A DNA stretch of 64,000 nt from Allobosea sp. Leaf344 (GTDB lineage Bacteria > Pseudomonadota > Alphaproteobacteria > Rhizobiales > Beijerinckiaceae): positions 462,648 to 526,647 of the forward strand of contig NZ_LMRT01000001.1 of the NCBI RefSeq assembly GCF_001426225.1, in the 5' to 3' direction. Shown here piece by piece: positions 1 through 40,617 of this stretch. Numbering within the stretch: position 1 is the first letter of the stretch; each line of letters opens with the position of its first letter. The translations under genes were made by a program, and so were the position numbers. The notes under the pieces were generated by a model. The model searched no databases and was not told the origin of the DNA. It was given only the letters and a program-made list of their open reading frames with translations.

Positions 1-882
1 GCGGTGGCGGCAGGGCTGGTCGATTTCGCCATCGGCTCGGATACTGCCGGCTCGCTGCGCATCCCGGCGCATTGCTGCGGCGTCACCGCCTGGAAGCCGA
101 GCTTCGGCCTGCTGCCGGTCGAGGGCGCGATGGCGCTCGCTCCCTCGCTGGACGTGCTGGGGTTCCTGGCGCGCGATGCCGAGACGCTGGTGAGGCTGGC
201 GCGCTGCCTGCTGCCGCAGCCGGCGCCCGCCCCGCTGCGCCGGATCGCCCATGCCGCGGATGTGAGCGCCGCCGCGGCCACTTCCATCGCCGCCGCCTGC
301 AGCGGATTGGCGGGGCAGCTGAAGGCGAGCGGGCTGCAGCTGGAAGAGGAGCCGCTCGGCGCGCTGCTGCAGGCCTGTGACAGGCTGGTGCTCGACGTAC
401 TGCAGGGCGAGATGGCGGCCGAGCATGGCTGGCGGATCGGCAGCGGAACGCTCGACCCGACGCTCGAGACGCGGCTGCGCAAGGGCCTGTCGATGCCGCA
501 GGAGCGGCTCGCCGAGGCGCGAGAGCGCCTGCAGGCGATCGCGCGGGCGCTGACCCTGTTCCGCCATCACGACGCCGTCCTGCTGCCGGTGATGCCGATC
601 GAGACGCCCGATATCGCCAGCTGCGACCCGGAGTCCCCGGGCTTCGCCCCGCGCTCGCTCTATGCGCTCTCGTCCTTCACCCGCTTCGTCAACGGGCTCG
701 GGCTGCCTGCCGTCGCCCTGCCCTGCGGTTTCGATGGCCATGGCCTGCCGATCGGCGCACAATTGGTCGGGCCGCGCGGCAGCGATCTCGCTCTGCTCAC
801 CCTGGCGGCACGGATACAGGGTGAAACCGCCTGGCATGGCCGCGAACCCTCGGCACTCGCTGGACTTCTGGAGGCCGCATGA
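1..882 (+). CDS. Amidase-signature hydrolase, 5' end outside window
   Basis: Hydrolase of the amidase-signature family (Ser-cisSer-Lys triad), which cleaves C-N amide bonds; the substrate is unknown. The reading frame is open from base 1, so the N-terminus lies upstream. What is visible begins at the end of the signature: GSDTAGSLRIPA, whose Ser (codon 52-54) is the expected nucleophile. The Lys and cis-Ser would be in the missing part. The C-terminal half shows the family's LPVMPIETP and GLPAVALPCGF...GLPIGAQLVG segments. The stop overlaps the next start by ATGA (879-882), so the two genes are probably translationally coupled. AtzF/AtzE-type and GatA-type amidases look alike at this level, and I cannot choose a substrate class. 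Confidence 0.9.
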   Translation, partial: AVAAGLVDFAIGSDTAGSLRIPAHCCGVTAWKPSFGLLPVEGAMALAPSLDVLGFLARDAETLVRLARCLLPQPAPAPLRRIAHAADVSAAAATSIAAACSGLAGQLKASGLQLEEEPLGALLQACDRLVLDVLQGEMAAEHGWRIGSGTLDPTLETRLRKGLSMPQERLAEARERLQAIARALTLFRHHDAVLLPVMPIETPDIASCDPESPGFAPRSLYALSSFTRFVNGLGLPAVALPCGFDGHGLPIGAQLVGPRGSDLALLTLAARIQGETAWHGREPSALAGLLEAA

Positions 883-2078
883 TCCATCCCGGCGCATCAT
901 CCGCCAAGGCGCTGTCGCATCTGCGCGTGCTCGATCTGACGCGTGTGCGGGCGGGGCCGACCTGCTGCCGCGTGCTGGCCGATTTCGGCGCGGACGTCAT
1001 CAAGATCGAGGCGCCGGACGGGGTCGATCCGAATGAGGGCATGTCGGGCGCGCGCGACGGCTACGACATGCTCAACCTGCACCGCAACAAGCGCTCGATG
1101 ACGCTCAACTTGAAGACGCCGCAGGGTCTGGCGGTGTTCATGCGCATGGTCGAGACGGCCGATATCGTCGTCGAGAACTACCGGCCGGACGTGAAGGAGC
1201 GGCTCGGCATCGCCTATGAGGATTTGCGGGCCGTCAATGCGCGGATCATCCTGGCGTCGGTGTCGGGTTTCGGGCAGGACGGGCCCTATCGCGAGCGCGC
1301 CGGCTTCGACCAGATCGCCCAGGGGATGGGCGGGCTGATGTGGATCACCGGGCTGCCGGGCCAGGGACCGGTCCGGGCCGGGGCCGCCGTGGCCGATTCG
1401 ACGGCCGGGCTCTATGCGGTCACCGGCATCCTCGTGGCGCTGGCCGAGCGCGAGCGCTCCGGCGAGGGGCAATGGGTCCATACCTCGCTGCTCGAGGCGC
1501 AGATCGCGCTCTGCGATTTCCAGGCGGCGCGCTACCTCGTCGACGGCGTCGCCCCCGCCCAGGCCGGCAACGACCATCCCTATGCGACGCCGATGGGCGT
1601 GCTCGCCACGGCCGATGGCTACATCAATATCGGCGTCGGCGGCGAGGGCCAGTGGCAGGCGCTGTGCCGGGTTCTGGACCGGCCCGACCTCGCCAACCAT
1701 CCGGATTACGCGAAAATGCCCGACAGGCTGCGCAACCGGCCGGCCTTGATGGGGCTGCTCACGCAGATCTTCTCCGCCGCGACATCCGATGAATGGCTGG
1801 AGCGGCTGGCCGCCGCCGGGGTGCCGGCGGGGCCGATCTACAAGATGGACGAGGTCTTCGACGATCCGCAGGTGCGCCATCTCGGCATCGCCCAGCCGGT
1901 GCCGCATGGCGCGCGCGGCGAGATCAGGCTGGTGGGCCAGCCGGTCACGCTGTCGCGGACGCCGGCGGTGCTCGAGACCCCACTGCCGGAGAAGGGCGAG
2001 CATTCCGAGGCGGTGCTGCGCGAGATCGGCTATTCCGCCGCCGACATCGCCAGGCTGCGCGAAGCGGGGGCGATCTGA
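879..2078 (+). CDS. CaiB/BaiF family (class III) CoA-transferase
   Basis: 399-residue family III CoA-transferase, expected to move CoA between carboxylic acids through an aspartyl-CoA anhydride. Visible family features are the N-terminal VLDLTRVRAGPTCCRVLADFGADVIKIE block, NLHRNKRSMTLNLK, and AAVADSTAGLYA, where Asp173 fits the catalytic aspartate. Length is typical of the family. The gene overlaps the upstream amidase by ATGA and the downstream crotonase gene by TGATG (2076-2080), so it sits inside a tight operon. The context suggests activation of a carboxylate released by the amidase, or of an imported acid, to its CoA ester. That role is inference. Confidence 0.92.
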   Translation: MIHPGASSAKALSHLRVLDLTRVRAGPTCCRVLADFGADVIKIEAPDGVDPNEGMSGARDGYDMLNLHRNKRSMTLNLKTPQGLAVFMRMVETADIVVENYRPDVKERLGIAYEDLRAVNARIILASVSGFGQDGPYRERAGFDQIAQGMGGLMWITGLPGQGPVRAGAAVADSTAGLYAVTGILVALAERERSGEGQWVHTSLLEAQIALCDFQAARYLVDGVAPAQAGNDHPYATPMGVLATADGYINIGVGGEGQWQALCRVLDRPDLANHPDYAKMPDRLRNRPALMGLLTQIFSAATSDEWLERLAAAGVPAGPIYKMDEVFDDPQVRHLGIAQPVPHGARGEIRLVGQPVTLSRTPAVLETPLPEKGEHSEAVLREIGYSAADIARLREAGAI

Positions 2079-2860
2079 TGGGCAGCGTCCGCTACAGCAG
2101 CGAAAACGGCATCGCCACGCTGGTCATCGACCAGCCGGACAGGCTCAACGCCATGACCTACGAGATGTGGGCGAGCCTGGAAGGGCTGGTGGCGCGTGCG
2201 GAGGCCGATGCGTCGGTCCGCGCCATCCTCGTCACGGGCGAAGGCGGGCGCGCCTTCTGCGCCGGGGCCGATATTTCGCAATTCGGATCGCAGCGCGACG
2301 GTGAGGACGCGACCCGCGCCTATGACCAGGCCTATCTCAGCGGCTGCGCCGCCATCGCCAAGGCGAGCAAGCCGAGCGTCGCGGTGATCCGCGGCGTCTG
2401 CTTCGGCGGCGGCTTCGGCCTGGCGATGAGCTGCGATCTGCGGCTCGCCCGCAGCGACGCCCGCTTCTGCGTCCCGGCCGCCAGGCTCGGGCTGGGCTAT
2501 GCCTATGAGGGCGTACGCGCGCTGTTCGGCAAGCTCGGCGCCGGCCCGGTCGCCGATCTGCTGCTGAGCGCCCGGATCATCGCAGGCGAGGAGGCGCTGC
2601 GGCTCGGCATCGTCAACGCGCTGTGGGGCGCCGACAGTTTCGAGCAGGAGGCGCAGGCCTATCTCGGGCGGATCGCGGCCAATGCGCCGCTGACCCTGCG
2701 CGCCGTCAAGCAGACGCTGAACGCGCTCCTCGCCGGCGAGCAGGAGAGAGACATCGACGCGGCGGACCGGGCGATCGCCGCCTGTTTCACCAGCGCCGAT
2801 TACAAGGAAGGCCAGCGAGCCTTCCGGGAAAAGCGGGAACCCGCATTCATCGGGGAATAG
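2078..2860 (+). CDS. Crotonase-fold protein (enoyl-CoA hydratase/isomerase family), non-canonical active site
   Basis: 260-residue member of the enoyl-CoA hydratase/isomerase superfamily. FCAGADISQF supplies one half of the oxyanion hole and the GGGFGLAMSCD region the other. The start is the ATG overlapping the previous stop (TGATG); the same frame stays open upstream but only as a shadow of the CoA-transferase gene. Oddity: classical hydratases have Glu at GGGCE and at QPE. Here the matching positions read GGGFG and VPAAR, so both general acid/base glutamates are replaced (Gly and Ala). Hydratase activity is therefore doubtful. Hydrolase, decarboxylase, isomerase or other crotonase chemistry is possible. 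It works on a CoA ester, probably the product of the adjacent CoA-transferase. Confidence 0.9.
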   Translation: MGSVRYSSENGIATLVIDQPDRLNAMTYEMWASLEGLVARAEADASVRAILVTGEGGRAFCAGADISQFGSQRDGEDATRAYDQAYLSGCAAIAKASKPSVAVIRGVCFGGGFGLAMSCDLRLARSDARFCVPAARLGLGYAYEGVRALFGKLGAGPVADLLLSARIIAGEEALRLGIVNALWGADSFEQEAQAYLGRIAANAPLTLRAVKQTLNALLAGEQERDIDAADRAIAACFTSADYKEGQRAFREKREPAFIGE

Positions 2861-2921
2861 GCCCGAAGGGGCCAAGATCGTGCAGAAAGCGGGTTTGCCC
2901 GCGACAGTGGAGGTTGAGACC

Positions 2922-3896
2922 ATGAAGCGCCGGACATTCTGTGGCGGCCTTGCCGCGCTGACATTCGCCTTCGCCGCTCCGGCGCAGGCGCAGACGCCCC
3001 TCTCCCCGCCGGTCCAGCTCACCGTCGGCTATCAGAAGGTCGGCCATCTCGCGCCGATCACGCTGATCGAGGAGGAGCTGAAGAAGCAGGGCGTCGAGAT
3101 CAAGCTGGTCGAATTCGCCCGCTATGCCGATGCGCGCACCGCCCTGCTCGCGGGTTCGCTCGACGTCGCCTCGGTCGGCCCCGCCGACCTCGCCATCGCG
3201 CTGGCCAACGGCTCGACCGGGATGGTCGGCATTATGGGCGTCGGGGCTTCGCCGAAATACGTCATCGGCCGCAAGGGCGTGAAGCTCGACAGCTGGGACG
3301 ACATCAAGGGCAAGAAGATCGCGATCGCGCCGGGCTCGGCCGTCTGGTTCCAATATGCGGCGACGCTGATCGAGAAGGGCATCCCCTACAACGCCTTCAA
3401 CGCCATCAACATCCAGGGCGGCGGCGCCAATTTCAACCAGGCGCTGGAGAAGGGCGAGGTCGACGCCATCGTGACCTGGGAGCCGTTCGAATCGATCCCG
3501 GTGATGAAGGGCTATGGCTTCTTCGCCAAGAATCTCGACTATTCCGCCTCCAAGGCGGTCGGCGCCGAGCTCGGCATGCTCGCCGCGTCGAAAGCCGCCG
3601 TCGACGGCAAGCGCGAGGCGGTGCAGCGCGTCGTCACCGCCTATGTCAGGAAGATGAAGGAGCTCGAGAGCTCGCCCGCCGCCTTCGGCACGGCGATCGC
3701 AAAGCTGACCGGGCTGGAGGAGGCCGTCTCGGCCGAGATCGCCAAGGTGATCAAGCTCGGGCCGGTGATCACCGTCGATCAGATCAAGCGCCAGGCCAAG
3801 GCCTTCAACGAGCTCGGCGTGATCCCCAAGGACGTCTCCGGCGATATCGAGAAATATTGGGATGCGAGCTTCCTGGAGCAGGCGGCCAAGAGCTGA
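2922..3896 (+). CDS. ABC transporter substrate-binding protein, SsuA/NMT1-THI5-like
   Basis: 324-residue periplasmic binding protein of the nitrate/sulfonate/taurine (NMT1/THI5-like) type. The start is ATG 2922, preceded by a GGAGG-type site around 2910; the frame is open from 2880 but without signal-peptide character. The N-terminus MKRRTFCGGLAALTFAFA-AQAQ is a signal peptide (twin-basic followed by a hydrophobic stretch, cleavage near AQA). The mature part has the typical VGYQKVGHLAPITLIEE opening, an ARTALLAGSLDVASVGPAD loop and a GEVDAIVTWEP hinge region. It is followed by its permease and ATPase, so it defines the ligand of this importer. The ligand cannot be read from sequence. Confidence 0.9.
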   Translation: MKRRTFCGGLAALTFAFAAPAQAQTPLSPPVQLTVGYQKVGHLAPITLIEEELKKQGVEIKLVEFARYADARTALLAGSLDVASVGPADLAIALANGSTGMVGIMGVGASPKYVIGRKGVKLDSWDDIKGKKIAIAPGSAVWFQYAATLIEKGIPYNAFNAINIQGGGANFNQALEKGEVDAIVTWEPFESIPVMKGYGFFAKNLDYSASKAVGAELGMLAASKAAVDGKREAVQRVVTAYVRKMKELESSPAAFGTAIAKLTGLEEAVSAEIAKVIKLGPVITVDQIKRQAKAFNELGVIPKDVSGDIEKYWDASFLEQAAKS

Positions 3897-3925
3897 GCGG
3901 CCAAAGAGCTGAGGCGGACAAGAGC
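3887..3925 (+). repeat. Three imperfect copies of an AAGAGCTGAG element
   Basis: The element AAGAGCTGAG, with small changes, occurs three times in about 40 bases. The first copy holds the stop codon of the binding-protein gene. It looks like local duplication of the gene end. The 140-base gap to the permease gene holds no other feature I can support. Confidence 0.5.
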
Positions 3926-4036
3926 TGAGCCGAGGCGGCCCGGCCGCCGCGAGAGACTCCGACTGAAGGCGGCAGCCCGGCACCGATCGCCCCGGCTGCC
4001 GCCCCCTTCTCCTCGAGGTCGAGACTGGAACATCCG

Positions 4037-4903
4037 ATGACCGCCACGGCCGAAACCTCTCCCCCGCCCTCCGCTTCCGGCGAGAGCCTGCGCTATCTCG
4101 GCGCGCGGCTGCGGCAATACGGCGCCGCGATCCTGCTGCCGCTGACGCTGGTCGTCCTGTGGCAGCTCGCCGGCAAGGACGGCTCGCTCGCCGGCGGCGC
4201 GCTGCCGACGCCGGACCGGGTCTGGGCGGCGTGGAAGATCTGGGCCTTCGGCACGCCGAGCGGCATGAGCCTCTCGCCCTATGTCGGCACCTGGGCCGAG
4301 AGCGTGCTGTTCTCGGCCCAGCGCGTGGCGAAGGGCTTCGCGCTGGCGATCCTGGTCGGCGTGCCGCTCGGCATCCTGATCGGCTGGTCGAAGCTGGCGC
4401 AGGCCATGGTCGACCCGACGATCCAGTGGCTGCGGCCGGTCCCGATCACCGCCTGGCTGCCGATCTCGATCGCGATCTTCGGCATCGCCGATTTCGGCGC
4501 GGTCTTCCTGATCACCATCGGCGCCTTCTATCCGATCGTGATCAACACCACCCAGGGCGCCCGTGACGTCGAGAAGAACTGGATCCGCGCCGCGCTGATG
4601 ATGGGCGCCGGGCGGCTGGACATCCTGCGCCGCATCGTCCTGCCCGCCGCCCTGCCCTCGATCTTCACCGGGCTGCGCATCGGGCTCGGCATCGGCTGGA
4701 CGGCGGTGATCGTCTCGGAGATGGTCGCGGTGAAATCCGGCCTCGGTTACGTGCTGTGGGATGCCTATTACGTCGGCCGCATGGATATCGTCATCGCCGA
4801 CATGGTCTCGATCGGCCTCGTCGGCTTCCTCTCGGACTGGCTGATCGTCAGGCTCGAGATGTGGGTGCTGCGCTGGCGCCGCCTGCAGAACTTCAACGGT
4901 TGA
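4037..4903 (+). CDS. ABC transporter permease, SsuC/TauC-like
   Basis: 288-residue inner-membrane permease with about six hydrophobic segments. The first is ILLPLTLVVLWQLAG after a short cytoplasmic N-terminus. The EAA-type cytoplasmic loop is visible as NWIRAALMMGAGRLDILRRIVLPAALPSIF, with the conserved Gly, followed by TGLRIGLGIGWTAVIVSEM, a hallmark of the nitrate/sulfonate/taurine permease group. It lies 140 bp after the binding-protein gene and 8 bp before the ATPase gene, giving a complete SBP-permease-ATPase set. No strong ribosome site precedes ATG 4037. Confidence 0.92.
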   Translation: MTATAETSPPPSASGESLRYLGARLRQYGAAILLPLTLVVLWQLAGKDGSLAGGALPTPDRVWAAWKIWAFGTPSGMSLSPYVGTWAESVLFSAQRVAKGFALAILVGVPLGILIGWSKLAQAMVDPTIQWLRPVPITAWLPISIAIFGIADFGAVFLITIGAFYPIVINTTQGARDVEKNWIRAALMMGAGRLDILRRIVLPAALPSIFTGLRIGLGIGWTAVIVSEMVAVKSGLGYVLWDAYYVGRMDIVIADMVSIGLVGFLSDWLIVRLEMWVLRWRRLQNFNG

Positions 4904-4911
4904 GCGCGCAG

Positions 4912-5670
4912 ATGGGCACGATTTCCTTCAACGCCGTTTCCAAGGTCTATGGCGGACCGGCCGGGGTGCGGGCGCTCGACAATGTCGATTTCCAGATCGG
5001 CGAGGGCGAGTTCGTCGCCCTGCTCGGTCCCTCCGGCTGCGGAAAATCCACGCTGCTGAACCTTCTGGCGGGGTTCGAGCCGCTGAGCGACGGGGTGCTG
5101 ACCTTCGACGGGCAGGCGATCAGCCGGCCGGGCCCCGATCGCGGCGTGGTGTTCCAGGAGGCGGCTCTGCTGCCCTGGCTCAGCGTCTGGGAGAATGTCG
5201 TGTTCGGGCCGAAGGTGCAGGGCCGCAGCGCCGCGGAATACGAGGACAAGGCCCGCGACATCCTGAAGATCGTCGGGCTGGAGAATTTTCACCAGGCGCT
5301 GCCGGTGCAGCTCTCGGGCGGGATGCGCCAGCGCGTCGGCATCGCCCGCGTGCTGGTGATGGAGCCGCGCGCGCTGCTGATGGACGAGCCCTTCGGCGCG
5401 CTCGACGCGCAGACGCGGCTCTCCATGCAGCAATTGCTGCTGGAGGTGTGGCAGCGGCTGAAGACCACCGTGCTGTTCGTGACGCATGACATCGACGAGG
5501 CGATCCTGCTCGCCGACCGGGTCTGCGTGATGACCGCGCGGCCGGGCCGGATCACCCGCGACATTCCGATCACCCTGCCGCGGCCACGGTCGCTCGACGA
5601 CCTCACCACCTCCGATTTCACGCGGTTCAAGGCCATGATCATGGCCGAGATGCGCGCCGGCCATCACTGA
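4912..5670 (+). CDS. ABC transporter ATP-binding protein, SsuB/TauB-like
   Basis: 252-residue ABC ATPase that would energise the adjacent permease. It carries Walker A GPSGCGKST, Q-loop VVFQEAALLPWL, signature LSGGM, Walker B LLMDEP and H-loop FVTHDIDEA, all in the expected order. The PWLSVWENV segment after the Q-loop is typical of nitrate/sulfonate/taurine importers. ATG 4912 gives the standard MGTISFNAVSKVYGG opening. The reading frame is open upstream only because it overlaps the permease gene in another frame. A C-terminal extension such as a NIL domain is absent. Confidence 0.93.
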   Translation: MGTISFNAVSKVYGGPAGVRALDNVDFQIGEGEFVALLGPSGCGKSTLLNLLAGFEPLSDGVLTFDGQAISRPGPDRGVVFQEAALLPWLSVWENVVFGPKVQGRSAAEYEDKARDILKIVGLENFHQALPVQLSGGMRQRVGIARVLVMEPRALLMDEPFGALDAQTRLSMQQLLLEVWQRLKTTVLFVTHDIDEAILLADRVCVMTARPGRITRDIPITLPRPRSLDDLTTSDFTRFKAMIMAEMRAGHH

Positions 5671-5683
5671 CGAGGCTGATCCC

Positions 5684-6565
5684 ATGGCCAACCCCCGGAT
5701 ACCCTACCGCCTCTCCTCGCAGCGGCCGGAACTGCCGGCGCTGCGCGGCAAGCGGATCTTCGTGCATCTCGTCGTCAATGTGGAGCATTGGCAGTTCGAC
5801 CAGCCGATGCCGCGCACCATCATCACGCCGCCGCATGGCCGCGAGACGGTGCCGGACGTGCCGAATTTCTCCTGGGCGGATTACGGCATGCGTGCCGGGC
5901 TGCCGCGCATCCTCAAGCTGTTCTACGAGCGCGGGCTGCCGGCCTCGGCCAGCTTCAACGCCGGGGTGATCGACGCCTATCCCGCCGCCGCCGAAGCGAT
6001 GCTGGAAGCGGGCTGGGAGTTCATCGGCCATGGCATCCACCAGAAGGCGATCAACCATGCGGAGGGCGGCGAGGAGGCCGTCATCCAGGGCGCGCTGGAC
6101 AAGATCGCCGCCTTCACCGGCAGCCGGCCGCGCGGCTGGCTCTCGCCCGGCCTGCGCGAGACGGTCGACACGCCGGACCTGCTGAAGCGCAACGGCATCG
6201 ACTATGTCTGCGACTGGGTGGTGGATGATCTGCCGAGCTGGATGGCGACGCGCCACGGGCCGATGGTCGCGATGCCCTATAATCTCGAGATCAACGATTC
6301 GATCATCTATGCGGTGGAGCGTCACGCTACCGGCGAGATGGCGAAGCGACTGGCGCATACGCTGCGGCTGTTCGAGGACGAGGTCAGCGAGAACCCGCGC
6401 GTACTGGCGATCGGGCTGCATCCGCATCTGATCTCGGTGCCGCATCGCTTCCACGAACTCGTCCAGATGATCGAGATGCTGCACGCCAGCAGCGAGGTGA
6501 TCTTCGTGACCGGCAGCGAGATCTGCGACTGGTACATCCAGGCGGAACCGCTGCGCGGCGCCTGA
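5684..6565 (+). CDS. Polysaccharide-deacetylase-fold protein, PuuE-like
   Basis: 293-residue NodB-fold hydrolase of the subgroup that includes PuuE-type allantoinases. The classical TFDDG metal motif is replaced by LVVNVEHW, as in that subgroup. A metal-binding pair is visible in FIGHGIHQK (H-x2-H) and a third motif in SRPRGWLSPG. There is no signal peptide, so it should be cytoplasmic and act on a small molecule rather than a polysaccharide. It starts 13 bp after the ATPase gene with GAGG eight bases before ATG. The neighbours (amidase and CoA-transferase) suggest hydrolysis of a cyclic or acyl amide imported by the ABC system; this is inference. Confidence 0.85.
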   Translation: MANPRIPYRLSSQRPELPALRGKRIFVHLVVNVEHWQFDQPMPRTIITPPHGRETVPDVPNFSWADYGMRAGLPRILKLFYERGLPASASFNAGVIDAYPAAAEAMLEAGWEFIGHGIHQKAINHAEGGEEAVIQGALDKIAAFTGSRPRGWLSPGLRETVDTPDLLKRNGIDYVCDWVVDDLPSWMATRHGPMVAMPYNLEINDSIIYAVERHATGEMAKRLAHTLRLFEDEVSENPRVLAIGLHPHLISVPHRFHELVQMIEMLHASSEVIFVTGSEICDWYIQAEPLRGA

Positions 6566-6584
6566 AGCGACCGAGGAAATCGAG

Positions 6585-7352
6585 ATGGACCTGAAACTGA
6601 GCGGGCGCCGCGTGCTGATCACCGGCGGCTCGAAGGGCATCGGCGAGGCCTGCGCCCGGATCTTCCTCGCCGAGGGCTGTTCGGTGGTGCTGGTGGCGCG
6701 GGACGCGACCCGTCTCGCCGCTTGCGCCTCCGGGCTCGGCGCCGGCAACCGCGTCGCCACCTGCGCGGCCGATCTCTCCGACGGGGCGGAGCGCGAACGG
6801 GTCGCCGCCAGCTTCCCGGACATCGACATCCTGATCAACAATGCCGGGGCGATCCCGGGCGGCGGATTGCTCGATCTCTCGATGGAGACGTGGGAAGAGG
6901 CCTGGGCGCTCAAGGTGATGGGCTATATCCACCTGACCAAGCTCTATCTCGCCGGGATGAAGGAACGGCAGGCCGGCTGCATCGTCAACATCATCGGCGC
7001 CGCCGGCCGCAGCCCGCGCTACGACTATGTCTGCGGCGGCACCGGCAATGCCGCGCTGATGGCCTTCACCGGGGCGGTCGGCGGCAAATCGGCGGATTGG
7101 GGCGTGCGGGTGATGGGCATCAACCCCTCGCAGACCCGCACCGACCGCATCGTCTCGCTCAGCAGGATGCGGGCGAAGGCCGCCTTCGGCGACGAGACGC
7201 GCTGGGAGGAGATGCTGGCCAACCTGCCGCTGGACCGGCTGATCGAGCCCGAGGAGATTGCCAATGCGGCCGCCTTCCTCGCCTCCCCGGCCTGCGGCTA
7301 TGTCAGCGGCACCGTGCTCGACATCGATGGCGGCGGCGCGTTTCGCGGCTGA
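6585..7352 (+). CDS. Short-chain dehydrogenase/reductase-fold protein lacking the canonical catalytic triad
   Basis: 255-residue Rossmann-fold SDR, last gene of the operon, with GAGGAAATCGAG before ATG. The nucleotide-binding motif TGGSKGIGEA and the NNAG motif are intact, as is the C-terminal GYVSGTVLDIDGGGAF segment. The active-site region reads IVNIIGAAGRSPRYDYVCGG then TGNAALMAFT. Aligned on NAAL with the usual KAAL, the Tyr, Lys and Ser positions become Gly, Asn and Gly. So it binds a dinucleotide but cannot use the textbook Ser-Tyr-Lys relay. The nearby tyrosines of RYDYV could substitute. I recall similar -GNAALMAF sequences among proteobacterial SDRs, so this is probably a subgroup trait and not damage. 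Confidence 0.88.
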   Translation: MDLKLSGRRVLITGGSKGIGEACARIFLAEGCSVVLVARDATRLAACASGLGAGNRVATCAADLSDGAERERVAASFPDIDILINNAGAIPGGGLLDLSMETWEEAWALKVMGYIHLTKLYLAGMKERQAGCIVNIIGAAGRSPRYDYVCGGTGNAALMAFTGAVGGKSADWGVRVMGINPSQTRTDRIVSLSRMRAKAAFGDETRWEEMLANLPLDRLIEPEEIANAAAFLASPACGYVSGTVLDIDGGGAFRG

Positions 7353-7415
7353 TCCGCTCCGCCCGATGGCTGCCGGGCGCCCCGTCAGCGCGACGAGCGG
7401 GACGCCGCATGACCT

Positions 7416-7724
7416 TCAATCTCCGGGCTGCGCGCCGTCATAGCCGCCGATGATCACCAGGTCGGTCTTGCCGGCCTGGGCGAGATGCTTCACCGCCTCC
7501 TGATACTCCGCCGATTCGTAGCAGGCGCGCGCGGTGGCCTCGTCCTTGAACTCGATCACCACATTATGCTTGCGGCCTTCGCCGCGGGCGAGCTTGTAGT
7601 CGCCGCCGCGCACCAGGAATTTCCCGCCGTATTTGGCGAAGGCGATGGCGTTGAGCGAGCGATAGGCGTCATAGGCCGCCTGGTTCTCGACATCGACGCG
7701 CGCGATCCAGTAACCCTTGGCCAT
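7416..7724 (-). CDS. DUF1330 family protein (downstream copy)
   Basis: 102-residue protein of the DUF1330 (dimeric alpha/beta-barrel-like) family. It starts MAKGYWIARVDVENQAAYDAY and contains GGKFLVRGG and NVVIEFKDEATARACYESAEYQ, the family hallmark. Its start lies 2 bp after the stop of a second DUF1330 gene, so the two form a tandem duplicate pair transcribed together. The family fold is ferredoxin-like; the function is unknown. The long open frame upstream of ATG 7724 is a shadow of the neighbour. It converges on the catabolic operon, with a 63-bp gap. Confidence 0.88.
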   Translation of the reverse strand: MAKGYWIARVDVENQAAYDAYRSLNAIAFAKYGGKFLVRGGDYKLARGEGRKHNVVIEFKDEATARACYESAEYQEAVKHLAQAGKTDLVIIGGYDGAQPGD

Positions 7725-7726
7725 GG

Positions 7727-8014
7727 TCACATGCCCTCCACGACGACGATGTCGATCTCGCCGGCGCCCTCGCGCAGCTTGCGCGCCTCGGCATATTCCG
7801 GGGAATTCGCATAGGCCTTGGCCGCGTCGAAATCCTTGAACTCGATCACCACGTTGCGGGCGCGGCCCTCGCCCTCGGCCACCGTCATCTGGCCGCCGCG
7901 CACGATCGGCGTGCCGCCATAGATCTTCATGGCTTCGCCGGCTTTCGCGGCATAGGCGGCCCATTGCGTCGCATTGGTCACCTTGGCGCGGGCGATCACA
8001 TATCCCTTGGGCAT
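7727..8014 (-). CDS. DUF1330 family protein (upstream copy)
   Basis: 95-residue DUF1330 protein, MPKGYVIARAKVTNATQWAAY..., with GGTPIVRGGQMTVAEGEGRARN and VVIEFKDFDAAKAYANSPEY. It is clearly homologous to the gene immediately downstream: same length class and the same RGG and VVIEFKD blocks. The C-termini differ (VVVEGM here, VIIGGYDG in the other), so the copies have diverged. It lies 32 bp downstream of pyrF on the same strand. The function is unknown; proteins of this fold often bind small molecules as dimers. Confidence 0.88.
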   Translation of the reverse strand: MPKGYVIARAKVTNATQWAAYAAKAGEAMKIYGGTPIVRGGQMTVAEGEGRARNVVIEFKDFDAAKAYANSPEYAEARKLREGAGEIDIVVVEGM

Positions 8015-8046
8015 GGTCGTTTCCTGATTCCGATGGGACAGCGAGC

Positions 8047-8754
8047 TTAGGAGGCGGCGGCGATCTCGTCCATGATCGCGGCGGCCGCGCCACGCGGGTC
8101 CGGGGCGCGGATGATGGGACGCCCGACCACGAGATGGTCGACGCCGGCCCGGATCGCCTCGCCCGGCGTCAGCGTGCGCTTCTGGTCGCCGACATCGGCG
8201 CCGGCCGGCCGTATGCCGGGGGTGACGATCACCATGTCGGCGCCGACGACATCCCGCACGATCTCGGTTTCGGCCGCGGAGCAGACGATGCCGTCGATGC
8301 CGGTGGTGCGGGCCTGCTCGGCCCGCAGGCGCACGAGATCGCGGATCGCCAGGCCATAGCCGGCATCCCTGAGGTCGCCATCGTCATAGGAGGTCAAGGC
8401 GGTGACCGCGAGCAGCTTCAAATCGCTGTCGGCTCGGCCCTCGACCGCGCCGCGCATGGTCTGGGGATAGGCGTGCACGGTCAGGAAGGTGACACCGAGC
8501 TTGGTGAGCGAATCCACGCCCTCGGTGACGGTGTTGCCGATATCGTGCAGCTTGAGATCGAGGAAGACCTTCTTGCCCTCGGCGACCAGCTGGCGCGACA
8601 GGTCGAGCCCGCCGGCGAAGGCCAGGCGATAGCCGATCTTGTAGAAGCTCGCCCCGTCCCCCAGCGTCGAGACGATGCGATAGGCGTCCCAGATGGTGGG
8701 GACGTCGAGCGCGACGATCATCCTGTCGCGCATGTCGTTGATCTTGCGGGTCAT
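8047..8754 (-). CDS. pyrF: Orotidine-5'-phosphate decarboxylase
   Basis: 235-residue PyrF, last step of UMP synthesis (OMP to UMP plus CO2), cytoplasmic TIM barrel. The catalytic Lys/Asp cluster is visible in [23 protein letters not shown] forms the first strand, and VTPGIRPAG with VVGRPI form the phosphate site. ATG 8754 is chosen because CCCTCC at 8761-8766 (GGAGGG on the coding strand) is spaced correctly for it; ATG 8760 would sit directly on that site. The DUF1330 pair follows on the same strand. Length is normal. Confidence 0.95.
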
Positions 8755-8850
8755 CGGCATCCCTCCGGCGGCTGCCGCGATGGGCCATGATTCGAGAAGG
8801 GATGCAAGACGGGTCGCAGGAACGGGCGCTCGACCGGCGCGAGCGCGGCT

Positions 8851-9501
8851 TCAGGTCCCGCCGCCCTGCCCCAGCACCTGCTGGAAGACCTGCGCCCAGA
8901 CATCGCCGGTCTGCGCGCCCGAGACGGCGAGCTTGCCGTCGATGATGAAGAAGGGCACGCCGGTGACGCCGACCTTCTGGGCATGGGCTTCCAGCCCGAT
9001 GATGGTCTCGCGCAATTCCTCGTTGTCGAGCTCGTCGCGAGCGGATTGCTCGTCGAAACCCTGCTCCACGGCGATCGCGACCAGGGTTTCGAGATCGCCG
9101 ATGTCGCGGCCCTCCTGGAAATAGGCACGGAACAGCGCCGCGGTCATCTCGCTGCCCTGCTGCACGGTGGAGGCGGCGGCGACCAGCATATGGGCGCGGC
9201 GGGTGTTCACGCTCTTGGTCACCCTGCCCCAGTTGAAGGTGACCCCGCTCTCCAGCGCCGCCTCCGAGAGGCGCAGCTCGATCTCCTTGCGTTTCCCGGG
9301 GCCGAATTTGGCGTCGAGATAGGCCGTCCGGTCCATGCCTTCCTCGGGCATGTCCGGATTGAGCTCATAGGGCAGCCAGGTGATGGCGACGCGGTCGGTC
9401 AGGCCATGGGCGCGCAGCGCCGCCTCGAGCCTCGCCTTGCCGATGAAGCACCAGGGGCAGACGATGTCGGAGACGATGGCGATCGGGAGTTTGTCCTGCA
9501 T
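8851..9501 (-). CDS. DsbA-family (FrnE-like) thiol oxidoreductase
   Basis: 216-residue cytoplasmic DsbA-superfamily protein with no signal peptide. The thioredoxin-type active site CPWC is in IVCPWCFIGKARLE near the N-terminus, followed by the helical insertion and the cis-Pro segment VTGVPFFIIDGK. The arrangement matches FrnE / 2-hydroxychromene-2-carboxylate isomerase-like proteins. FrnE relatives are disulfide isomerases linked to oxidative stress; the physiological partner here is unknown. It is not obviously in an operon, with 96 bp to pyrF and 93 bp to epmB. Confidence 0.9.
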   Translation of the reverse strand: MQDKLPIAIVSDIVCPWCFIGKARLEAALRAHGLTDRVAITWLPYELNPDMPEEGMDRTAYLDAKFGPGKRKEIELRLSEAALESGVTFNWGRVTKSVNTRRAHMLVAAASTVQQGSEMTAALFRAYFQEGRDIGDLETLVAIAVEQGFDEQSARDELDNEELRETIIGLEAHAQKVGVTGVPFFIIDGKLAVSGAQTGDVWAQVFQQVLGQGGGT

Positions 9502-9594: not shown

Positions 9595-10665
9595 TCACCG
9601 GGGCGTCTCGCCGCCGGGGGGCGGATAGGCATGGCTGACGCCTAGCCTGTCCTCGACGGCCGCCTCGGCACCGGGCATCTCGCAGCCGGACAGGTAGGAG
9701 GGCCCGACGGGCACCTTGCCGGCGCCGCCGGGGATATCGAGGATATAGGTGGGCTGGCACAGCCCCGAAAGATGGCCGCGCAGGCTTTTGACCAGCGCCT
9801 GCCCCTCGTCCAGCGACAGCCGGAAATGGCCGGTGCCGGGGGCGAGATCCGGGTGATGCAGGTAATAGGGCTTGACCCGGTTCTCGACGAAGGCCCGCAT
9901 CAGCGCCGCGAGCGTGTCGGGATCGGCATTGACGCCCTTGAGCAAAACGCTCTGGCTGATCAGCACATGGCCGGCATCGGCCAGCCGCGCCAGCGCCAGG
10001 CGGGCCTCGCCGGTGAACTCGCGCGGGTGGTTGGCGTGGATGGCGATATAGCTCGCCTTGCCCGGCACGCGCAGCGCCCGGGCGAATTCCGCCGTGATCC
10101 GCTCGGGCTGGACCATCGGGACGCGGCTGTGCCAGCGCGCCACCTTGATATGCGCGATGGCGGCGAGCCGCGCCGTGACCGCGCGGATGCGCCGTGGCGA
10201 CAGGATCAGCGGGTCGCCGCCGGTCATGATCACCTCCCAGATCTCGGGATGCGCCGCGAGATAGGCCAGCGCCGCCTCGAGCCTGTCGCCGGTCAGCGCA
10301 TCGCCGCCCGGCCCGACCATCTCGCGGCGGAAGCAGAAGCGGCAATAGACCGGGCAGGCATGGACGAGCTTCAGCAGGGCACGGTCGGGGTAGCGATGCA
10401 CCACGCCCTCGACCGGGGAATGCGCCGCGTCGCCGATCGGGTCGGCACGTTCCTGCGGCGCGGCCTCCAGTTCGCGGGCGGTCGGGACGAATTGGCGCGC
10501 GATCGGGTCGGCCGGATCGGCAGGGTCGATCAGCCCGGCCATGGCCGGCGTCACGGCGACGGCGTAACGCGCGGCGACGGCGTCGAGCGCCGCGCGCCCG
10601 GCCGGATCGGCCAGGCCCCGGGCGATCAGGGCGTCGATGCTGCGTAGCGGGGTATGAGCGGTCAT
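9595..10665 (-). CDS. epmB: EF-P beta-lysylation protein EpmB (lysine 2,3-aminomutase-like)
   Basis: 356-residue radical-SAM protein of the EpmB/lysine-2,3-aminomutase family. The cluster motif CxxxCxxC is read as [10 protein letters not shown], followed by GGDPLIL and the PLP-binding C-terminal region. EpmB converts alpha-lysine to beta-lysine for transfer to elongation factor P. ATG 10665 overlaps the epmA stop (ATGA at 10662-10665), which fixes both start and operon. The frame is open for another 89 codons upstream, but that is epmA in another frame. With epmA and efp adjacent, the EF-P role is firm. Confidence 0.94.
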
Positions 10666-11726
10666 GGCGGTTCCCTGCCCGGTTCCGCCACCGGCGTCCA
10701 GAGCACATCGTCGATGCGGCGCGCGCCGGTGCAGAGCATCACCAGGCGGTCGAAGCCGAGAGCGATGCCGCAGGCCTGCGGCATCAGCGCCAGCGCCGCC
10801 AGGAAATCCTCGTCGATCGGATAGCGCTCGCCATAGATCCGGGCCTTCTCGTCCATATCGGCCTCGAAGCGGCGGCGCTGCTCGGCCGGGTCGGTCAATT
10901 CGCCGAAGGCATTGGCCAGTTCGACGCCGCAAGCATAGAGTTCGAAGCGCTCGGCGACACGCGGATCCCCCGGCTTCGGCCGCGCCAAGGCGGCTTCCGA
11001 GATCGGATACTCCATCAGGATCGTGGCGCGGTCCTGTCCGAGATGCGGCTCGATCCGCTCCGACAGGATGCGGCTGAAAATATCGGACCAGCTGTCATCG
11101 GCGGCGACGCGGATGCCGGCCTGCACCGCATCCGCCGCCAGCCCGTCGCGATCGACATCGTGATCGGCCGTCACCGTGCGCAGGAGATCGATGCCGGCAT
11201 GGCGGAGGAAGGCCTCCTGCAGAGTGAGGCGCTCGGGCTGCGCAAACGGATCGACGCTGCGGCCGCGCCATGTCAGACGCGACGCGCCGGCAGCCTCTGC
11301 CGCCTCGGCGAGAAGGGCCGCGCAATCCTGCATCAGCGCCGTATAGCTCTCGCCCGCCCGGTACCATTCGAGCATGGTGAATTCCGGATGATGCAGCGCC
11401 GTGCGCTCGCGATTGCGGAAGACGCGGGCGAATTCGAAGAGCCGCGGCTCGCCCGCCGCCAAGAGCTTCTTGGCCGCGAATTCCGGCGAGGTGTGGAGAT
11501 AATAGGGGTGGGAAAGCCCTGCATCGTCGATCAGGCTGGTGGCGAAACCGTGCAGATGCGTCTCGTTGCCCGGCGAGACCTGCAGGATCGCCGCCTCGAC
11601 CTCGATGAAATCGCGCGCCTCGAACCAGTGCCGCAGCGCCCTCCTGATCCGGTTGCGGGCCAGCAGCGCCGGCCGCCGGTCGGCGTGGATATCCGGCCGC
11701 CAGAAGGGCGGTCTCCGTTCGGCCAT
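10662..11726 (-). CDS. epmA: EF-P lysine lysyltransferase EpmA
   Basis: 354-residue class II aminoacyl-tRNA-synthetase paralogue (also called PoxA, GenX or YjeA) that ligates beta-lysine onto elongation factor P. Motif 2 is visible as [20 protein letters not shown] and motif 3 as [14 protein letters not shown]. The anticodon-binding domain of LysRS is absent, as expected. ATG 11726 opens [12 protein letters not shown]; the frame is open much further upstream but only antisense to efp. epmA and efp are divergent and share an intergenic region of about 215 bp. Confidence 0.94.
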
Positions 11727-11942
11727 GTCGCGTCCTTCAGCCGGCGCACTCCCGGGCAGCGCCGCGCGCAAGATGAAGGGGAAGCGCCGCAGGGTCCAGC
11801 GGGCGATGATCGGAGAGCGCGCTCCGGGCGCTCGATGCAGGGCCCGCGCGCGAAACGCTTCCGTTTTCGGCCCCGATGCGGTAGTGGCGCGGCAATGAAT
11901 TCGATCGCGCGGATGCCGCGCAGCAGCAAGGAAGACATCGCC

Positions 11943-12512
11943 GTGGTCAAGGTCATCGCCTCCTCCGTCCGAAAGGGCAATGTGCTCGAGCTCGACGGGC
12001 ATCTCTGCTCGGTCCTCTCCGCCGAAAGCTTCTTCCCCGGAAAGGGCACGCCGACGACGCAGATCGACATGCGCCGCATCTCCGACGGCGTGAAGATGAC
12101 CCAGCGCTACAAGACGACGGAGCAGGTCGAGCGCGCCTATGTCGAGGATCGCGACTTCACCTATCTCTACCAGGATGGCGAGCAATACGTGTTCATGAAC
12201 CCCGAGACCTTCGACCAGATCAATGTCGATGGCGACGTGGTCGGCGACATGGCGCCCTATCTCCAGGAAGGCATGAAGGTTTCGCTCTCGGTGTTCGAGG
12301 ACAAGGCCGTCGCGATCGAGCTGCCGCAGCGGGTGACCGTCGAGGTCGCCGAGACCGAGCCCGTGACCAAGGGCCAGACCGCCTCCTCCTCCTACAAGCC
12401 CGCCATCCTGGTCAACGGCGTGCGCACCGCCGTGCCGCCGCATATCGGCCCCGGCGTCCGCATCGTGGTGATGACCGCCGACGGCTCCTATGTCGAGCGC
12501 GCCAAGGACTGA
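11943..12512 (+). CDS. efp: Translation elongation factor P
   Basis: 189-residue EF-P, which relieves ribosome stalling at polyproline. I chose the GTG at 11943: AAGGAAG lies 8 bases before it, and it puts the modified lysine of FPGKG at residue 34, the family's position. An ATG at 11913 would add ten residues without a better ribosome site. The three beta-barrel domains are complete, ending [18 protein letters not shown]. The modifying enzymes EpmA and EpmB are encoded divergently next door, so this EF-P is expected to be beta-lysylated. A terminator hairpin follows at 12563. Confidence 0.94.
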
Positions 12513-39366: not shown

Positions 39367-40617
39367 CTAAGCTTCGGCACCGACAAGTCTTTCCAGCGCC
39401 TTTGCCACCGCGATGACGACTTCGTCTGCGCCGAATCCGGCGATGATCTGAATGCCGACCGGCAGCCCTCGCGGACCCTGCAGCACCGGTATGGTGAGGC
39501 AGGGCACGCCGAGCAGCGTCCAGAGCCGGTTGAACTTGGAATCCCCGGTCGAGCCTATCGTGTCCGGCGCCTCGCCCGGCGCGGCATAGGAGATCACCAC
39601 GTCGCAGGCGCCGAAGAAGCCGCGCGCCGCGTCACGGCCCCGGCGCGAGAGCCGGCGCGCCTCGTCATAGCTCGCGGCACCGGCGGATTGGACGCCGTCG
39701 AGATAGCTGCGCAGCTTGGGCGGGATCGCCTCGCGATGATGCCGGTATTCCCAGGCGAGGGCGTGGCGGGCCTCGTAATCCTGCAGCGGCGCATGCGCCT
39801 CATAGGCCGCGGCCAGGGCGGCAGGCGTCTCGAGAGGCACGATGACCGCTCCCGCCGCCGCGGCGATCTCGGACAGGCGCTGCAGCGCCGTCTCGCAAGC
39901 GGGTTCGGCCGCGCCGGCGAAATCCTGGCGCGTCACGCCGATCCGCAGGCCCTGCAGCGTGGCGGGGCCGGCATCGAGCTCCGGCCGCTGCGCGATCGCC
40001 GCCAGCGCCAGCCCCAGATCATCGGCGCTGGCCGCCATCAGGCCGAGCGTGTCGAGCGACCAGGAAAAGGGCTTCACGCCGACGGTGGGCAGCAGGCCAT
40101 AGGAGGTCTTGATCGCTGCGACCCCGCAATAGGAGGCCGGTCGGATGACCGAGCCACCGGTCTGCGTGCCGATCGCGAGCGGGATCATCCCGGCCGCGAC
40201 CGCGGCGGCGGATCCGGCCGAGGAGCCGCCGGGGCTGGCCGTCGCGTCATGGGGGTTATGGGTGGGGGCCGGGTCGAGAAAGGCGAAGGCGGTGGTGTGG
40301 GTCTTGCCGGCGACGCTGGCGCCGGCCGCCTTCAGCGCCATCACGATCGGGGCGTCGGCGCGCGGCTGCCAGCCCTCATAGATCGGCGAGCCCATCCGCG
40401 TCGGCAGATCGGCGGTGTCGATGATGTCCTTGACCCCGCAGGCGATGCCGGCCAGCGGGCCGGTGCCGGCGCGGAGCCCCTCCGGCCGGCTGGCGAAGGC
40501 CTGGATCGCCGGCTCGCGCGCGTCGATCCGCTCCTGCGTCGCGGCGAGTTCGGCCTCGGCCGTGCTCTTGCCCGCGCTGACGCGCCCGACGATGTCCCGC
40601 ACGCTCAGCATGCTCAT
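39367..40617 (-). CDS. Amidase-signature hydrolase
   Basis: 416-residue amidase. The triad is complete: Lys in CGVKDIIDTADLP, cis-Ser in SPGGSSAGSAAAVA and nucleophile Ser in GTQTGGSVIRPAS. Shorter than GatA, with no glutamyl-tRNA amidotransferase context. ATG 40617 overlaps the stop of the DUF2798 gene (ATGA, 40614-40617), so the two are co-translated. The longer open frame upstream is a shadow. Substrate unknown; it is only distantly similar to the amidase at the window start. Confidence 0.92.
   Translation of the reverse strand: MSMLSVRDIVGRVSAGKSTAEAELAATQERIDAREPAIQAFASRPEGLRAGTGPLAGIACGVKDIIDTADLPTRMGSPIYEGWQPRADAPIVMALKAAGASVAGKTHTTAFAFLDPAPTHNPHDATASPGGSSAGSAAAVAAGMIPLAIGTQTGGSVIRPASYCGVAAIKTSYGLLPTVGVKPFSWSLDTLGLMAASADDLGLALAAIAQRPELDAGPATLQGLRIGVTRQDFAGAAEPACETALQRLSEIAAAAGAVIVPLETPAALAAAYEAHAPLQDYEARHALAWEYRHHREAIPPKLRSYLDGVQSAGAASYDEARRLSRRGRDAARGFFGACDVVISYAAPGEAPDTIGSTGDSKFNRLWTLLGVPCLTIPVLQGPRGLPVGIQIIAGFGADEVVIAVAKALERLVGAEA

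Follow-up and report, generated by a model that had tools for sequence, protein, structure and literature searches.

A nine-gene cluster, in large part recurring in Alpha- and Betaproteobacteria, and its possible role in the breakdown of cyclic imides

We analysed a stretch of 64,000 nucleotides from Allobosea sp. Leaf344 (contig NZ_LMRT01000001.1, positions 462,648 to 526,647), hereafter the window, which opens with eight genes encoding an amidase, a family III CoA-transferase, a crotonase-like protein, the three parts of an ABC (ATP-binding cassette) importer, a PuuE-like hydrolase and an SDR-like (short-chain dehydrogenase/reductase) protein. With a LysR-type gene upstream, they make up a predicted catabolic cluster whose families are known but whose combination had no characterised counterpart in the literature searched. 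We tentatively propose that the cluster imports a small cyclic imide, or a related ring amide, and breaks it down in two hydrolytic steps with subsequent CoA activation. The proposal is based on the content, order and conservation of the genes, on predicted fold and on the residues described below, from which we infer every reaction as well as the substrate.

The importer would bring the ring compound into the cell, where the PuuE-like enzyme would open the imide ring to give a half-amide, and the amidase would convert the half-amide into a dicarboxylate and ammonia. The CoA-transferase would then load the dicarboxylate with CoA, for which succinyl-CoA is one possible donor. The acyl-CoA would be reworked by the crotonase-like and SDR-like proteins, which judging from their residues are not a hydratase and not a classical dehydrogenase, respectively, while the LysR protein would respond to the substrate or to an intermediate. 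A cyclic imide is the simplest candidate for a ring whose opening would leave an amide that is hydrolysed in turn. A preliminary description of this DNA had already outlined import, hydrolysis, CoA transfer and a final conversion. That path is partly supported, in that importer, hydrolases and CoA-transferase are conserved together and amide or cyclic-amide hydrolysis is their likeliest logic, but with the residues of the last two proteins its final conversion is no more than tentative. If the cyclic-imide reading is true, the cluster supplies a specific set of genes with which bacteria could grow on imide rings.

Gene order and conservation

All eight genes listed in the preliminary description were located on the + strand by open reading frame (ORF) calls and Pfam and NCBIfam profile searches, with strong matches to the stated families (Table 1). 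Its three overlaps or near-contacts proved, on measuring the junctions, to be two true overlaps, of 4 bases between amidase and CoA-transferase (879-882) and of 1 base between CoA-transferase and crotonase-like gene (2078), and three near-contacts. The gaps before the binding protein, permease, ATPase, PuuE-like and SDR-like genes are 61, 140, 8, 13 and 19 bases. The suspicion that genes upstream of the window complete the set was borne out as well: in the upstream DNA (L009, whose positions minus 17000 give window positions), we found the LysR gene, 80 bases before the amidase, and the N-terminus of the amidase, which the window edge cuts and which starts at L009:16620. LysR and the eight structural genes thus line up as a nine-gene cluster on one strand, likely a single operon. 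A promoter and terminator scan of window positions 1-7600 gave no signal above shuffled sequences, and nothing in positions 1-9000 matched an Rfam family at its gathering score.

Table 1. Genes of the cluster and its first downstream neighbour (window positions, or L009 positions where indicated; aa, amino acids)
Feature	Position	Strand	Profile match
LysR-type gene	L009:15634-16539	same as cluster	LysR models match, none over its own cut-off
Amidase (amidase-signature family), C-terminal 293 of 420 aa, predicted half-amidase	1..882 (full gene L009:16620-17882)	+	PF01425, 130 bits for the piece
Family III CoA-transferase, 399 aa, predicted dicarboxylate activation	879..2078	+	PF02515, 409 bits
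Crotonase-superfamily protein, 260 aa, without the hydratase Glu pair	2078..2860	+	PF00378, 157 bits; PRK06127, 325 (above cut-off 291)
NMT1/SsuA-like periplasmic binding protein, 324 aa	2922..3896	+	PF13379, 53 bits; PF09084, 45 bits
SsuC/TauC/NtrB-like permease, 288 aa	4037..4903	+	PF00528, 84 bits
SsuB/TauB-like ATPase, 252 aa	4912..5670	+	PF00005, 114 bits
PuuE-like hydrolase, 293 aa, predicted cyclic-imide (ring-amide) hydrolase	5684..6565	+	
SDR-fold protein, 255 aa	6585..7352	+	PF00106, 125 bits; PRK06125, 357.5 (above cut-off 261)
DUF1330 gene, running towards the cluster	7443-7724	-	106 bits

To follow the gene set beyond the host, we made one scan with the PuuE-like protein, which turned up relatives in 180 stretches. 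We retained the best 80 as loci, some of them short contigs. A partner was counted when on the + strand within 9 kb, and a locus was eligible for a gene when it reached far enough to hold it. Genes of the relatives were mechanical ORFs picked by codon-position G+C, with some wrong starts and some genes missed (e.g. the ATPase of L020 and the hydrolase of L137). Most eligible loci encoded on the same strand the ATPase (72/76), permease (68/72), binding protein (54/66), CoA-transferase (53/58), crotonase-like protein (53/63), SDR-like protein (56/66) and amidase (41/52). A same-strand LysR gene was present in 27 of 50, namely 27/32 in Alphaproteobacteria and 0/18 in Betaproteobacteria; GntR-type genes were present in 18 of the betaproteobacterial loci, and several Betaproteobacteria had the binding protein on the opposite strand. 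The eight structural genes kept the window order in 23 of the 48 eligible loci (21 alphaproteobacterial and 2 betaproteobacterial), and the annotation of Azospirillum brasilense Sp7 plasmid p3 matches the nine-gene order. Thus, the order recurs in other Alpha- and Betaproteobacteria, and across related loci the hydrolase is 64-88% identical to that of the window. Within the host family, Beijerinckiaceae, a hydrolase of at least 70% identity was found in 8 of the 99 genomes searched, own genome included, and the three other genomes of the genus had best matches of only 28-30%, which makes the cluster patchy.

The PuuE-like hydrolase and its amidase partner

The ring-opening role would fall to the PuuE-like hydrolase, which had been described as a cytoplasmic deacetylase. 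The PuuE fold is indeed there, PuuE (3cl6) being among three tied best structural matches to an alignment-based model, but the residues do not bear out the deacetylase part of the description: the Asp-His-His metal site of CE4 enzymes is absent, and the D-D-H-H of the genome's own CE4-type paralogue (L012) reads N32-E34-H116-Q120 here. N32, E34 and H116 are kept in all 81 aligned rows, and PuuE itself has N-E-H-W at these positions. On these grounds we rejected a CE4 deacetylase. It is consequently improbable that the cluster serves small-molecule N-deacylation, in which an N-acyl compound would be imported, cleaved by a true deacetylase and its acid recycled by the CoA-transferase. Such a role would suit the Pfam name, Polysaccharide deacetylase, and the NodB-type fold, as well as the related HP0310, described as a peptidoglycan deacetylase. 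The description of HP0310 came from a test with crude peptidoglycan, however, and in the same study the purified protein showed no activity towards allantoin or the acetylated compounds tested (PMC3084791). Reading of the window protein also revealed no secretion signal.

An allantoinase was rejected too. The protein scored 110.4 bits on TIGR03212 (PuuE allantoinase) against a cut-off of 424.6, whereas another protein of the same genome (L011) scored 531.6, and the genome already has PuuE-UraD. PuuE differs moreover at six further conserved positions. The window protein has 2103 relatives at E ≤1e-10, and those with names among the 120 matches listed go under allantoinase, peptidoglycan/xylan/chitin deacetylase or polysaccharide deacetylase; neither of these two functions, allantoinase or deacetylase, fits its score and residues.

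The partner, a predicted half-amidase, keeps the GGSS motif of amidases in 53 of 54 aligned rows. In 20 distant loci, an amidase lay near the hydrolase in 7 (adjacent in L139, L141 and L142) for a chance expectation of about 1 in 20 (11 amidase ORFs per 4.35 Mb of own genome), which is not a clean statistic, as the loci were picked by hand rather than at random and come partly from related genomes. The relatives of the amidase include allophanate and biuret hydrolases. Together with the structural match to an allantoinase, this would suit a ureide, hydantoin or lactam ring, opened by the PuuE-like enzyme to a carbamoyl or amide product on which the amidase works. We consider this unlikely. Besides the allantoinase score and the PuuE-UraD already in the genome, a ureide has no obvious need for a CoA-transferase, yet that gene accompanies the hydrolase in 53/58 eligible loci, and the nine genes include none for purines, urate or allantoate. 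Incidentally, the window holds a second amidase-family ORF at 39415-40473 on the - strand (G000:C1:502062-503120; 213 bits).

The nearest described precedent that we found for the pairing is fungal. In nicotinate catabolism of Aspergillus nidulans, HxnM, a cyclic imidase related to PuuE and HP0310, acts before the amidase HxnN, which hydrolyses the half-amide (PMC9304392). The window cluster has a PuuE-like hydrolase that is likewise predicted to act before an amidase, but the fungal system belongs to a pyridine pathway leading to 2-hydroxyglutarate, and the part of the paper available names neither a CoA-transferase nor an ABC importer. The paper also gives FAAH1 as the closest structural homologue of HxnN, and the cyclic imide hydrolase homologue of Pseudomonas putida YZ-26 (AAY98498) as 64% identical to HxnM.

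A similar design is found in the acesulfame clusters of Bosea and Chelatococcus, which combine an ABC importer, a ring hydrolase, an amidase-signature enzyme and LysR (PMC10413263). Their ring hydrolase is a metallo-beta-lactamase-type sulfatase in place of the PuuE-like enzyme, and no CoA genes are named in the part of the paper available. The importer genes beside that sulfatase, and the SsuABC type of the window importer, might suggest an acesulfame-like cyclic sulfonamide or another N-sulfonyl ring as substrate, but this is the least probable of the alternatives. The nine genes, which are those examined for this point, include no metallo-beta-lactamase-type sulfatase, and we rejected an acesulfame-type cluster for this reason. 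The binding protein, for its part, scored 110.6 on TIGR01728 (SsuA, aliphatic sulfonate binding), under the cut-off of 163.5, and its solved relatives were weak SsuA-type matches of 36 bits at best. The earlier label of sulfonate-type importer is thus to be read as a statement on fold family and not on ligand. More generally, neither a characterised cluster with this gene set nor a pathway cluster for imidase, imide or maleimide appeared among the matches listed in open-licence full text, in agreement with the earlier statement that no named pathway has this set.

CoA chemistry and the nature of the ring

The CoA-transferase is closest to enzymes acting on dicarboxylates, its nearest solved relative being succinate-hydroxymethylglutarate CoA-transferase (9br7, 262 bits). 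The catalytic Asp of family III, position 169 in formyl-CoA transferase, is present as Asp173 in 58 of 58 aligned rows. Both observations are as expected if the product of the hydrolyses is a dicarboxylate. With SUGCT-type enzymes such as 9br7 the protein has family and catalytic Asp in common, but it stays below the equivalog cut-off of its best NCBIfam model, NF052585 (succinate-glutarate CoA-transferase; 320.9 bits, cut-off 750).

The crotonase-like and SDR-like proteins belong to the families announced, but they are without the residues by which hydratases and dehydrogenases are defined. In the former, Gly114 and Ala134 take the place of the hydratase Glu pair (positions 144 and 164 in rat numbering), which is present in a complete crotonase encoded in related loci. 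Among its aligned rows, the second Glu occurs in 0/56 and the first in 14/56, after dropping 5 of 61 rows that were the second, complete crotonase. The SDR-like protein retains the nucleotide-binding motifs TGxxxGIG and NAG, as TGGSKGIG and NNAG, but its Ser-Tyr-Lys positions read Gly138-Gly151-Asn155; G138 and N155 are found in 65/65 rows, and at position 151 there is G in 63 rows and P in the other 2. With catalytic residues replaced in both, the conversion step proposed earlier is no more than tentative. As the absence is conserved across species, they may do something new if the cyclic-imide reading is true.

Glutarimide specifically, processed through glutaramate, glutarate and glutaryl-CoA to crotonyl-CoA, has to be weighed here, because the best model of the CoA-transferase is the succinate-glutarate one and an acyl-CoA dehydrogenase occurs in 31 of the 80 related loci. 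We judge it very improbable: the score is far under the model's cut-off, a crotonyl-CoA hydratase would need residues that are missing from the crotonase-like protein, and a better glutarate-type CoA-transferase elsewhere in the genome (604.7 bits, also under 750) would make a second one redundant. The glutarate route was rejected as main explanation on this last ground. That other enzyme lies at L116:8651-12915 (G000:C1), together with an acyl-CoA dehydrogenase and a thiamine-diphosphate enzyme, a trio that is possibly a separate glutarate module. The genome also has, on another contig and adjoining another CoA-transferase, a 66% relative of the acyl-CoA dehydrogenase of related loci.

To come back to the cyclic-imide reading, accessory genes near the relatives of the hydrolase suggest unsaturated dicarboxylates. 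A maleate-isomerase-like gene is present in 12/80 loci (nearest solved, maleate isomerase, 49 bits), a flavin monooxygenase in 11/80 (PnpA, 209 bits; HspB, 167 bits) and an MmgE/PrpD gene in 16/80 (IRG1-type, 104 bits). Substituted maleimides or glutaconimides fit these genes better than glutarimide does and are tentative candidates for the ring. A bolder version, which is speculative and on the whole unlikely, would be a dedicated pathway, widespread in bacteria, for mineralising rings of the substituted maleimide or glutaconimide type, for instance tetrapyrrole or hydroxypyridine fragments, via CoA thioesters. An imidase derived from PuuE and a half-amidase would make a cis-dicarboxylate, the class III CoA-transferase would activate it, and the Glu-less crotonase and the SDR without Ser-Tyr-Lys, both re-purposed, would carry out new steps of neither hydratase nor classical type, such as decarboxylation or C-C cleavage. 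A literature search on maleimide and tetrapyrrole breakdown gave nothing on bacterial imide genes among the matches listed. In Bradyrhizobium L024 and L041, the hydrolase is followed some 3-6 kb downstream by genes of the porphobilinogen deaminase and URO-D types (by Pfam on L024 only); we took this pair for neighbouring housekeeping genes and did not count it as a tetrapyrrole clue.

Two related loci caught our attention in passing. L124:1-12808 (G073) gathers two flavin monooxygenases, two NMT1 binding proteins, ABC genes, an SDR-like gene, a PuuE-like hydrolase (55-56%), a maleate-isomerase-like gene and an amidase, and is a candidate pyridine-type pathway. L146:6616-12300, on a plasmid of Variovorax paradoxus VAI-C, holds an amidase, a CoA transferase, an enoyl-CoA hydratase family gene, a PuuE-like gene (60%) and an MmgE/PrpD gene in an unbroken series, in the neighbourhood of an NtaA/DmoA monooxygenase.

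Several observations weigh against a cyclic imide degraded through CoA activation. The amidase is the least conserved partner, with 41-54% identity in alphaproteobacterial and 31-39% in betaproteobacterial loci; in Limnohabitans-type loci, the sole amidase is often on the other strand and 31-34% identical, and 13 of the 20 distant loci have none. Four eligible loci are devoid of permease and ATPase. In three Bradyrhizobium loci, amidase, importer and hydrolase occur with none of the CoA-transferase, crotonase-like and SDR-like genes close by, and the CoA steps are therefore not a strict requirement. The likeness of the window hydrolase to HxnM and the YZ-26 imidase is drawn from their published descriptions. 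Lastly, none of the maleate-isomerase-like, monooxygenase and MmgE/PrpD genes is in the window's cluster; in own genome, a search run without positive control gave no match to the maleate-isomerase-like protein, and the best match to the flavin monooxygenase was only 27%. The accessory genes therefore inform on the family only.

Genes flanking the cluster

Upstream, the ORFs of L009:1-12700 resemble by eye a prophage (capsid/protease, terminase, tail tape measure) that ends a few kb before the LysR gene. Downstream, the DUF1330 gene of Table 1 is backed, as judged by eye, by a second DUF1330 gene (to 8012, - strand) and then by pyrF. Further on, translations of window positions 9595-12512 include ORFs like EpmB, EpmA and elongation factor P (EF-P), which together would make up an EF-P lysylation set.

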